Below are positions 4,197-15,046 of a stretch of 46,855 nt of DNA, in pieces. Position 1 is the first letter of the stretch; each line of letters begins with the position of its first letter. Below the pieces are notes generated by a model, which saw only the letters and a list, made by a program, of their open reading frames with translations, was not told the DNA's origin and ran no database searches. This stretch comes from Verrucomicrobiota bacterium (lineage in GTDB: Bacteria > Verrucomicrobiota > Verrucomicrobiia > Opitutales > UBA953): contig JAPLTV010000024.1 in NCBI GenBank assembly GCA_026397955.1, forward strand, positions 1 through 46,855, in the 5' to 3' direction. The position numbers and the translations under genes are program-made.

Positions 4197-5051
4197 CTAG
4201 ACGGCGACGTCTTGGACCGGGACTCCTGGGTGCATCTCGAAGATGCCTACGGGGGTCGTCGGGCCTGTCATCACGATGGAATAATCATCGCCGATGCCAA
4301 TGATAATCTGACCTCCCGGCATATTTACCGTCAAATCTGCGTCAACCAGGCCCATTTTACGAGCCACGGCGGCCGAAGCCGAAGAGGAGGAGCCGGAGGC
4401 CATCGTGTAGCCGGCGCCGCGTTCCCAGATCTCGATCCGCACGTTCTTGCGATCGGTGATCTTCATGAACTGGACGTTGGTGCGGTTCGGGAAATTGGGG
4501 TGCACCTCAAGGTGCGGTCCGTACGTCTTGGCGAGTTCGGGCGTGAGCTCGTCGACCGGGATCACGCAGTGCGGGTTGCCGACGGTGGCGGCCCAATACT
4601 TGAAGGTCTTGCCGAGGACGGTGATCTCTTCGCCGAGGACTTCGCGGTCGGCACCGATGTGCGGGATGACTGGGGCGCGGAAGGAGACCTTGCCCATCTC
4701 GACGCGGATGCGGTTACCGCCGTCGAAGACTTCGCAGCGGACGATGCCGCCGATGGTATGCAGGCGGAACTCCTGGCCTTCCTGGATGCGCTTGGTCTCG
4801 AGGAGGTGGCGGCAGAAGATGCGGATGCCGTTGCCGGACTTCTCGGCCTCGGAGCCGTCGGGGTTAAGGATGCGCAGACCGAAGGTACCGTCAGTGCGTT
4901 CGATTGGGCCGTACAGGATACCGTCCGAGCCCAGACCGAAGTGACGGTGGCAGACCTTGCGGATAGCTTCGGGCGAAAAGAGGGTAGGGCAGTCCTTGGG
5001 CTCAAGGACGAGGTAGTCGTTGCCGAGGGCGTGGTATTTTGCGAAACGCAT
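4197..5051 (-). CDS. dapF: DapF-fold protein (diaminopimelate epimerase-like) with Ser/Ser active site
   Basis: The overall match is to diaminopimelate epimerase, which interconverts LL- and meso-diaminopimelate for lysine and peptidoglycan synthesis. The 284-residue length fits, taking the ATG at 5051 that begins MRFAKYHALGND. Substrate-contact residues known for the E. coli enzyme are conserved: N63 in NPDGS, N159 in GNPH, N192 in RTN, and E210-R211 in ERGAG. However, both catalytic cysteines are replaced. The usual CGNG is SGNG (Ser72), and the usual ACGSG is ASGSS (Ser219). The Glu after ERGAG is Tyr215. Cysteine is the catalytic acid/base pair in known DapF enzymes, so epimerase activity is doubtful. 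It may act on another amino acid or as a dehydratase-like variant. The family is certain; the activity is not. Confidence 0.85.
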   Translation of the reverse strand: MRFAKYHALGNDYLVLEPKDCPTLFSPEAIRKVCHRHFGLGSDGILYGPIERTDGTFGLRILNPDGSEAEKSGNGIRIFCRHLLETKRIQEGQEFRLHTIGGIVRCEVFDGGNRIRVEMGKVSFRAPVIPHIGADREVLGEEITVLGKTFKYWAATVGNPHCVIPVDELTPELAKTYGPHLEVHPNFPNRTNVQFMKITDRKNVRIEIWERGAGYTMASGSSSSASAAVARKMGLVDADLTVNMPGGQIIIGIGDDYSIVMTGPTTPVGIFEMHPGVPVQDVAV

Positions 5052-11207: not shown

Positions 11208-13697
11208 ATGACTCTCCGTCTTGTCTTCCTTAGCCTCGTCCTTCTTCCCCTAGGTTCCGCGGGGGCGCCCCCGCCGTTTCTCGAGAAGAACTGCGTCGAG
11301 TGCCATGACGCCGACGCCAAGAAAGGTGGCCTAGATCTGACGGCCCTCAAGGCCGACCTGACCGATGCCAAGTCCTTCGAGACCTGGGTGAAGATCTTTG
11401 ACCGGACCGCCAGTGGCGAGATGCCACCCAAGAAGAAGGCGCGCCCGGATGTCGCACAGCAGTCGGCCTATCTCGGCGATCTCTCCGCGTTGCTCGTCCG
11501 TCAAGATTCGGCCCGCAACGTCACCCAGGGTCGTACGGTCGAACGACGCATGAACCGTTTCGAATACGAGAACGCCGTGCGCGACCTCCTGCAGGCTCCG
11601 TGGCTCGACCTGAAGGAGACCCTGCCAGAGGACACCGATGCGTTCCGCTTCAATAAGACCGGTCAGGCGCTCGACGTCTCGCACGTCCAGTTGCAGCGCT
11701 ATCTGACCGCCGCCGAAGATGGCCTGCGGTCCGCCTTCGTCTCTTCCGTCGAGAAACCCGACGCCTCGCCGAAGCGCTACTATGCCCGCCAGCAGGGTAG
11801 CTACACCGGCAAGATGAAATTCTCGGAATTCAATACGTCTCCCGAACGCGCTACCTTCCCGACGCTGGGCTTTGCGGGCCAGCCGGATGTCCGCCGGGGT
11901 GACGCTAAGATTTCCGTCGGTAAGGCTGACCCTAAGCTCCGTGATGAAGAGGGTGTGGGTGTCGTGCATGGTGCCTACGAGCCGGTGGAGCCTAATTTTT
12001 CGACCTTCCGGGCGCCGACCTCGGGACGCTATAAGCTCAAGCTCTGCGGCCATTCCGTCTGGGTCGGGCCGGGCAAGCAGGTCGGCAAGGCTCCAGCCCG
12101 CTGGTATATTCCGGACCTCGATGATATCTCCAAAGGCCATCGCCCTGAGCCAGTAACGGTCTATGCGCTGATGCACCCGCGTATCCTGCGTCGCATTGGT
12201 AACGTCGACTTCAATCCGGACGTGACCGTCAACGACCTCGATGTCGTCCTCAAGGCCGGTGAGACCATCCAGATCGACACTGTCCGTTTCTATCGCTCCC
12301 GCCCGGGCGCCAGCCGCGCGCAGAATCCCTTGGCGACCCCGGAAGGGCAGCCTGGCTTGGTGATGCGCTGGATCGAGGTCGAAGGACCGCTCGCGCCGCA
12401 GTGGCCGGCCGCGCCCTACGCCGTGATGTTCGACGCTCTGCCGACGAAGCCCGTCGTGGGTTCGCCCCTCCGCTTCGAGGTCGTGACGAAGGATGCGCCG
12501 AAGGACGCCGAACGCCTGCTGCGTCGCTTCGTGAAGCAAGCCTATCGCACACCGGTCTCGCCGCAGGAAGAGATCCGCTTCCTCCCTGTTATCCTCGGCG
12601 CGATCAAGTCGGGCAGCACCTTCGCCGAGGCCATGTTGACCGGCTACACCGCCGTACTGTGCTCGCCTTCCTATCTCTATCTCCAGGAGAAGCCCGGTCG
12701 CCTGGATGACCACGCCTTGGCCGCCCGCCTGGCCTATTTCCTGTGGAATTCCCCGCCCGATGAACAGCTTCGCTCGCTAGCCGCCGCCGGTACATTGCAT
12801 GAACCCAAGACCCTGCGGGCGCAGACGGAACGGCTTCTCGCCGACCCTCGCTCCGCCCGGTTCGTCGACACCTTCACCGACTACTGGCTCGACCTGCGCA
12901 AGGCCGGCGCCAACGACCCGGACAACCTCCTGTATCCGGATTACTACCTCGACGACCATCTCGTCGAATCGGCCCGCGATGAAAGCCACGCCACCTTCGC
13001 CGAACTGATTCGCGGCAATCTGCCCGTGCGCAATATCGTCGACGCCGACTTCGTCTTCGTGAACGAACGCCGCGGGGGCTTCATGACGCAGGCTGCCGTG
13101 CTCAAGGTTACCGCCAATGGTACGACGACTTCGCCCGTCATCCGCGGGGCTTGGATTATGGAACGCATCCTCGGTCGCAAGCCCCCGCCCCCGCCCGCCA
13201 GCGTGCCGGCGGTCGAGCCCGACACCCGCGGCGCCGTCACGATTCGTCAGCAGCTTGCGAAGCACCGCACATTGGAGTCCTGTTCTTCCTGCCATACCAA
13301 GATCGACCCACCTGGCTTCGCGCTGGAGAGTTTCGATGTCATGGGCGGCTTCCGCGAACGCTATCGCGCTCTCGATGGCAAGACCCCGGAGCTCGGCATC
13401 GGCAAGAACGGACAAAAGTATGCCTTCCATAACGCCTTGCCGATCGAGACCTACGGCGAACTCGACGGTAAGAAGTTCAAGGACATCCGCGAATTTAAGA
13501 AGATCGTCGCCGCCGATGAGCGTCAGCTCGCGCGCAATATCGTCGGACAGTTAGCCGTCTTCGCCACTGGCGCGCCCGTCGGGTTCTCGGATCGTCCGAA
13601 GGTCGAGGCCCTCCTCGATCAGGCCAAGGACGGCCATTACGGCGTCCGTGATCTCGTCCACGGGCTTGTCTCCAGCGACCTATTCCTTAACAAGTAA
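11208..13697 (+). CDS. Secreted DUF1592-family cytochrome-domain protein (DUF1587/1592/1588/1585)
   Basis: An 829-residue exported protein of a type expanded in Planctomycetota and Verrucomicrobiota. A signal peptide of about 20 residues is followed by a cytochrome-like segment with a CVECH haem-binding motif (C29, C32, H33). The middle carries DUF1587-like ([16 protein letters not shown]) and DUF1592-like ([22 protein letters not shown]) sequence. The end carries DUF1588/DUF1585-like sequence, with a second CxxCH, CSSCH, near residue 692. The function of these proteins is not established; a redox role in the periplasm is inferred from the haem motifs. It forms a pair with the DUF1552 gene 11 bases downstream, an arrangement that is standard for the family. 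Confidence 0.92.
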
Positions 13698-13708
13698 TCA
13701 CATACCCC

Positions 13709-15046
13709 ATGTCTTCTTCCCTGAACCCGGCCAACACGCCTTACGTCGCCTTCAGGCGCTCCGTCTCGCGCCGTCGCTTCCTCGCCGGTACCGGCGTGCT
13801 GCTCGCGCTCCCGATGCTCGATGCGATGACCCCGGCCTTCGCCGCCGCTGTCCCGTCCGCGACCAAGCCCCGCCGCATGCTGGGCATCTGCAATAACCTT
13901 GGTCTGGTCCCTGACTACTTCTTCCCGACGGGCAAGGGTAAGGACTACAAGGCTTCGCCGTACCTCGAGCTCCTGCAGGCCCACCGCAAGGACTTCAGCG
14001 TCTTCTCCGGCGTCTCGCACCCCGATGTCGACGGCGGCCACCCGGCGGACAATTGCTTCCTGACCGCGGCTCCGCACCCGAGCAGCGGCGGCTTCCGTAA
14101 CACGATCTCGCTCGACCAGTTCATGGCCGAGCGCATCGGCCACCTGACGCGCTTCCCGGCGATGACCCTTGGCGTCAATTGCGCCCGCGGTTTGCGTAGT
14201 CTTTCTTGGACAGCTGGTGGCGTGATGATTCCGACTGAAGAGAAGGCCTCGGAGGTCTTCCGTAAAATGTTCATGGGCGGTTCCGCCACGGAAGTGCTGG
14301 CCCAGGAGCGTCGCCTCCAGCTCGGCCAGAGCATCCTCGACGCCGTGGGCGGCCAGGCGGGCGAGCTCCGCCGCTCCATGGGCGCGCAAGACCGCGATCG
14401 TCTCGACCAGTACTTCACCAGCGTCCGCGAACTCGAACAGCGTATGCAGATGTCGAAGGAGTGGGAAAAGAAGCCCCGTCCGGTCGCCAAGACCTCCACT
14501 CCGCTCGACCCGAGCAGCCCCAAGGAGTACATGGACAAGGTTCGCCTAATGTACGACATGGCTCGCTTGTGCTTTGAGACCGATTCCTCCCGTGCCGTGA
14601 CCCTCATGCTGGACAGCGTGAACACGCCCGCCCTGGACATCGACCACGTCCATACGACGACCGACGGCTACCACAGCCTCTCGCACCACGGCAAGTCGGC
14701 CAAGAAGCTTTCGCAACTCAAGGACATCGACAGCATGCACATGCGCCTGCTCGCGAAGCTGATGGAAGACCTCAAGACCTCGAAGGAAGACGGTGCGCCG
14801 CTCCTCGACCGTACGATGATCCTCTATGGAAGTAATTTCGGCAACGCCAACGCCCACACGACGACCAACATGCCGACCCTCCTGATGGGCGGCGGCTTCA
14901 ATCACGGCCAGCACCATGCATTTGATACCGAGCGCAATTATCCGCTGCCGAATCTGTTTGTCTCGATGCTCCAGCGCATGGGCATTGATGCCGACAAGTT
15001 CGCCTCGTCGACCGGTTCGATGCGCGGACTGAACCTCGTCGGCTAA
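13709..15046 (+). CDS. Tat-exported DUF1552 protein
   Basis: A 445-residue DUF1552 protein. The N-terminus carries a twin-arginine signal: SRRRFLAG at residues 20-27, then a modest hydrophobic stretch ending near AFAAA. This predicts export in folded form by the Tat system, whose TatC gene is in the same window. Mature sequence includes [30 protein letters not shown] and [13 protein letters not shown], with several His/Asp positions like those of sulfatase or phosphatase-fold proteins; the family's reaction is unknown. It is co-transcribed with the DUF1592 gene, suggesting the two products work together outside the cytoplasm. Confidence 0.92.

Follow-up and report, generated by a model that had tools for sequence, protein, structure and literature searches.

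A serine/serine form of DapF, fixed across a broad bacterial clade, is probably a working diaminopimelate epimerase

The textbook DapF is a cofactor-free epimerase that uses two cysteines as a thiol/thiolate pair, and the alpha-proton that such an enzyme takes from an amino acid has a pKa of about 29. What, then, is the role of a DapF homologue with serine at both catalytic positions? Such a gene lies at 4197..5051 (minus strand) of the window, that is, of the whole 46,855-nucleotide stretch analysed, in the genome of a freshwater Opitutales bacterium, and encodes 284 amino acids. The double replacement had been reported in the initial annotation. The phmmer alignment with solved DapF confirms it, placing the catalytic cysteines opposite Ser72 (first site; motif EAEKSGNGIR) and Ser219 (second site; motif YTMASGSSSSA). 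Both codons are TCC, at 4836..4838 (read 4838-4836) and 4395..4397 (read 4397-4395) of the minus strand, coordinates computed from the reading frame.

By profile and fold the protein belongs to the DapF family. The equivalog TIGR00652 matches with 222.8 bits (curated cut-off 114.65) over residues 1-268 of 284, and PF01678 is the sole Pfam match (171.7 bits). The PROSITE signature of DapF, N-x-(DN)-(GS)-(SENGFT)-x(4)-C-(GI)-N-(GA)-x-R, as quoted in PMC8225329, fits the protein except for the cysteine, and of the two catalytic cysteines expected of a DapF neither is present. Since the catalytic-cysteine signature fails, we call the protein a Ser/Ser variant, not a canonical member, and one that probably works as DapF. 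The model of the bifunctional DapF/glutamate racemase (NF038284) yields 58.8 bits against a curated cut-off of 350. No Pfam family of the proline racemase/hydroxyproline epimerase superfamily matches, and structures of this superfamily appear only from rank 27 of the structural matches, at 12-18% identity.

An AlphaFold2 model built from 36 Ser/Ser sequences (pLDDT 93.8) has as its best PDB match the Anabaena DapF 9mro (TM 0.89, 37% identity), and DapF entries fill the first 15 PDB rows. In the model, the predicted helices 73-85 and 220-232 begin directly after Ser72 and Ser219, respectively. Asn66, Asn164, Asn197, Glu215 and Arg216 of the Anabaena enzyme hold the distal amino acid of DAP (PMC12039745); their equivalents N63, N159, N192, E210 and R211, which the initial annotation had listed as kept, are all present and do not vary among the 36 Ser/Ser proteins compared. 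The side chain of Anabaena Thr226 contacts the proximal carboxylate (PMC12039745), and its equivalent is Ser221 (serine in 65 and threonine in two of 67 Ser/Ser proteins). The conserved binding residues fit DAP as the substrate.

In the window the neighbours encode a TatC-like protein, an SNF2-type helicase, a sulfatase-like protein, an oxidoreductase and a gluconokinase, all unrelated, and the neighbours of divergent Ser/Ser loci differ (MoeA, ThiL, ThiH, HisB, PyrD and others); comparison of these loci showed no conserved dap operon around the gene. Elsewhere in the window, at 11208-15046 (plus strand), a planctomycete-type cytochrome protein (DUF1587/1592/1588/1585/1595) precedes a DUF1552 protein.

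Among 317 DapF rows read at the two sites (a set that contains the window query and two loci derived from the window, with some genomes counted twice), 257 are Ser/Ser, 59 are Cys/Cys, none is mixed and one is incomplete. The last one (L264, genome G293) is a Cys/Cys-type DapF carrying an in-frame TGA, in which the first site only is readable, as cysteine. All 80 loci from named genomes, the best 80 of 105 by similarity to the window protein, are Ser/Ser; according to the record titles they come from Opitutae, other Verrucomicrobia, Desulfobacterales, other Deltaproteobacteria, Planctomycetota, SAR324 and the cyanobacteria Mastigocoleus and Spirirestis. The dN/dS ratios range from 0.03 to 0.23 in all six pairs tried, demonstrating purifying selection.

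The initial annotation had asked whether Ser/Ser proteins form a clade. In a tree built from 67 Ser/Ser and 44 Cys/Cys proteins, 111 representatives in all, one branch with SH-aLRT 100 separates the Ser/Ser proteins from the rest, implying one change of state. The tree was made by a quick method with the catalytic sites masked (in 12 rows at one site only). The Ser/Ser form is fixed across a broad bacterial clade. In the same 67 and 44 proteins, 26 columns, including the two catalytic sites, are conserved in the Ser/Ser set and different in the Cys/Cys set. Lys71 (66/67) stands opposite Met in 42/44 Cys/Cys proteins, Tyr215 (67/67) opposite Glu (34), Ile (7) or Val (3), Ser222 (66/67) opposite Gly in 44/44, Ile78 (67/67) opposite Cys in 42/44, and Glu207 (63/67) opposite Arg in 43/44.

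One further Ser/Ser DapF, counted separately from the 317 rows, comes from a collection of viral sequences (IMG/VR contig IMGVR_UViG_3300035326_000440; L396:2923-3768; 45% identity). The residues around its serines are Cys/Cys-like (EQSGNG, ASGSGACA), and it is possibly an early branch of the Ser/Ser clade. By similarity only, the window protein matches 117 records of a plasmid collection and 26 of a phage collection (top-ranked rows with 38% and 36% identity, respectively), and it has no match in PHROGs.

LL-DAP is the product of DapL, and a single step by Ddh yields meso-DAP (PMC4176475). The genome harboring the window is 93.6% complete. A PF01678 search found one gene in it, the Ser/Ser DapF, so a hidden second DapF is rejected, and the Cys/Cys copy whose search the initial annotation had proposed did not turn up. 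The same genome encodes an LL-DAP aminotransferase (NF004937, 637 bits; cut-off 585) and MurE (479 bits) with the motif DNPR, which we take to mark the DAP-adding MurE. Two other routes were considered and rejected there, a Ddh bypass (best 19.7 bits, cut-off 180.6) and the DapD route (best 20.9 bits, cut-off 375.4). In the window's genus no DapL scores over the TIGR03542 cut-off, and the best TIGR03542 locus is the different LL-DAP aminotransferase type, NF004937. Five relatives (G110, G111, G113, G122 and G129) have DapL (TIGR03542) over the cut-off and a single DapF of the Ser/Ser form, and no Ddh in them reaches its cut-off; a sixth (G116) has DapL with a Cys/Cys DapF. The Ser/Ser gene lies about 1.1 kb from dapL in L088 and about 1.6 kb in L083, and a dapL relative (profile run on L247 only) shares the locus with the Cys/Cys gene in seven cases (L247, L249, L250, L252, L254, L258, L259). 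In G113 the MurE motif is DNSR (L182), its relatives having DNPR.

In the window's family, DapF scores over the cut-off in 62 of 79 genomes. Of these, 38 were read (the window, 30 loci, four further loci and three genomes known from coordinate-sharing loci), and 37 are Ser/Ser and one (G011) Cys/Cys. The order as a whole has a DapF match in 161 of 183 genomes. Outside the window's family 139 genomes have one, and 127 genes of 126 genomes were read, the 13 left out being mostly weak or partial matches: 115 are Ser/Ser and 12 Cys/Cys, with both forms together in one genome (G166). A phylum sample has a DapF match in 135 of 144 genomes; 43 further genes from it, top scorers and hand-picked ones and not a random draw, comprise 40 Cys/Cys, two Ser/Ser and one incomplete.

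Loss of DapF goes along with gain of Ddh. Among genomes of the order that are at least 90% complete, Ddh scores over the cut-off in 10 of 22 without DapF vs 4 of 57 with DapF (Fisher p = 2e-4; two of the 22, G243 and G261, were inferred from numbering, and the 57 are relatives plus a chosen set, four of them Cys/Cys). Once G180 and, in either group, every genome up to 1.0 Mb are removed, the figures are 10 of 14 vs 4 of 56 (p = 2e-6). These p values overstate the effect because the genomes are related: the ten Ddh genomes without DapF represent about four lineages (g4; G009; G125 with G202; G243). In g4, Ddh is found in six of seven genomes without DapF, and the genome with a Cys/Cys DapF, G011, has no Ddh. 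Ddh accompanies a Ser/Ser DapF in four genomes (G143, G189, G209, G215) and scores over the cut-off in none of the 31 named Ser/Ser host genomes. With Ddh found more often in genomes that lack DapF, the g4 pattern included, meso-DAP seems to come interchangeably from Ser/Ser DapF, Cys/Cys DapF or Ddh.

Twelve of the 22 genomes without DapF also have no Ddh. MurE scores over the cut-off in 11 of them, ten with DNPR; in the eleventh, G219, the matched piece stops short of the motif. Another source of meso-DAP or its uptake may therefore exist in these 11, and assembly gaps may also play a part among the twelve. Seven of the twelve (G151, G219, G165, G175, G193, G198, G212) are small Opitutales genomes of 0.7-1.0 Mb with MurE. 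G180, a single contig of 2.3 Mb, is unlike its genus in having no first-look candidate for DapF, Ddh or MurE, and its sequence may be unusual.

Taken together, we consider it probable that the Ser/Ser protein is the lineage's working DAP epimerase, converting LL-DAP to meso-DAP through Ser72 and Ser219. The sequence, predicted fold, conservation, single branch and gene content are established directly; LL-DAP to meso-DAP as the reaction is probable from pathway content and the replacement pattern. Of the two options that the initial annotation had offered, the lineage's own DAP epimerase gains support from the sole PF01678 gene, the single branch, the pathway content and the replacement pattern, and the other, a different reaction or ligand sensing, finds no support in this genome: nothing pointing to dehydration or ligand sensing was found there. 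LL-diaminopimelate would be delivered by the DapL-type aminotransferase of the same genome, and the meso-DAP formed would pass to MurE for peptidoglycan and probably also to lysine. Ser72 and Ser219 would take off and give back the alpha-proton as a putative serine acid/base pair; Lys71, Tyr215 and Ser222 perhaps tune the pair, as candidate residues for a lower serine pKa or for proton relay. Whether this extends to cofactor-free two-serine epimerisation throughout the clade, assisted by Lys71 and Tyr215, running at physiological rates and replacing the thiol/thiolate pair, we suggest tentatively, doubt being slightly the stronger.

Several findings count against a normal DapF role: the twelve genomes with neither DapF nor Ddh, the four with Ddh beside a Ser/Ser DapF, the lack of a conserved operon, the near inactivity of Cys-to-Ser mutants of related enzymes, and the company that the protein keeps in some hosts. 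No second DapF over the cut-off is found in 25 of the 31 genomes with named Ser/Ser loci, and six (G086, G089, G090, G092, G099, G107) also have a Cys/Cys copy; three of these hosts (G088 and G102 among the 25, G107 among the six) are represented by chromosome-titled records, the rest being of unstated completeness. The coexistence means that Ser/Ser may have another role in those six genomes. More generally, the Ser/Ser protein could act on another substrate or in another reaction (another diamino acid, dehydration, D-glutamate), with meso-DAP supplied by an unrecognised enzyme such as a PLP-dependent DapF2-like one. DapF2, predicted mainly in Staphylococcus as a PLP-dependent replacement, is unrelated and shows that DapF is replaceable (PMC9026213); the genomes with MurE and neither DapF nor Ddh agree with another source. 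Ser/Thr sites are linked to dehydration in the proline racemase superfamily (PMC4113996), and Cys-to-Ser single mutants of relatives are nearly inactive, turnover being greatly reduced in HisR (PMC11602996) and activity almost completely lost in PddB (PMC8225329). We nevertheless regard this explanation as unlikely: the distal DAP-binding residues are invariant, Ser/Ser and Cys/Cys substitute for one another within the order, loss of DapF accompanies gain of Ddh, and the DapF/glutamate racemase model stays far below its cut-off.

A catalytically dead DapF relative, retained for binding or regulation, would explain the absence of both catalytic cysteines, and Chlamydia trachomatis DapF no longer complements when alanine replaces the residue at either of the two sites (PMC5885031). 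We think this highly improbable, as neither the window's genome nor most of the named hosts yielded any DapF besides the Ser/Ser protein, in the 257 Ser/Ser rows the serines are never another residue, and about two dozen other columns have changed along with both sites. An artefact of sequencing, assembly or reading frame, or gene decay, has next to no chance, because Ser/Ser rows come from many genomes with none mixed, the 80 best of 105 loci agree and dN/dS is low, which bears out the initial annotation in its claim that no frame artefact is involved.

The full-text literature, in the parts covered, which leave subscription journals mostly outside, yielded no account of a naturally occurring Ser/Ser DapF. 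A single Cys-to-Ser swap nearly kills PddB and HisR, and a working Ser/Ser form would run against textbook expectation. If whole lineages do rely on this form, the thiol pair is dispensable, one fold holds a second catalytic solution for abstracting the alpha-proton of an amino acid, and cofactor-free alpha-proton removal becomes open to comparison between two natural solutions. Thiol reagents, oxidation and aziridine-type DapF inhibitors would not be expected to affect a Ser/Ser DapF, so that bacteria carrying it would escape thiol-directed inhibitors of DapF. Profile-based annotation would also be assigning the name dapF regardless of absent catalytic residues.

The closest known system is the canonical Cys/Cys DapF (EC 5.1.1.7; PDB 9mro from Anabaena, 4ijz from E. 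coli, 1gqz from H. influenzae). Known DapF enzymes have kcat/KM values of 3 x 10^4 to 8 x 10^5 M-1 s-1 (PMC12039745). The window protein resembles it in fold (TM 0.89 to 9mro), TIGR00652 membership, distal DAP-binding residues and sequence (37% identity to 9mro), and differs in having serine at both sites and in Lys71, Tyr215, Ser222 and some 20 other columns that are conserved differently. The DapF mutants C73S and C217S (PDB 2q9h, 2q9j) likewise have serine at one site in the same fold, but they are laboratory single mutants, unlike the natural double serine, and presumably do not carry the remaining residues typical of the Ser/Ser clade; substitutions of this kind impair catalysis (PMC12039745). 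The aspartate/glutamate racemase EcL-DER, in which one catalytic cysteine is naturally threonine and activity is kept (PMC8142540), is of another structural class, is altered at one site only and catalyses a one-way reaction. Natural serines in place of a catalytic cysteine occur in the related fold of the proline racemase superfamily, in 4-hydroxyproline 2-epimerase B9JQV3 (Ser93/Cys236) and trans-3-hydroxyproline dehydratase B9K4G4 (Ser90/Thr256) (PMC4113996); these differ from the window protein in having one serine opposite Cys or Thr and in acting on other substrates. The Ser/Cys pair of B9JQV3 works, and a natural serine can therefore serve as acid/base (PMC4113996). The two serines of the window protein would go a further step beyond this natural Ser/Cys pair.
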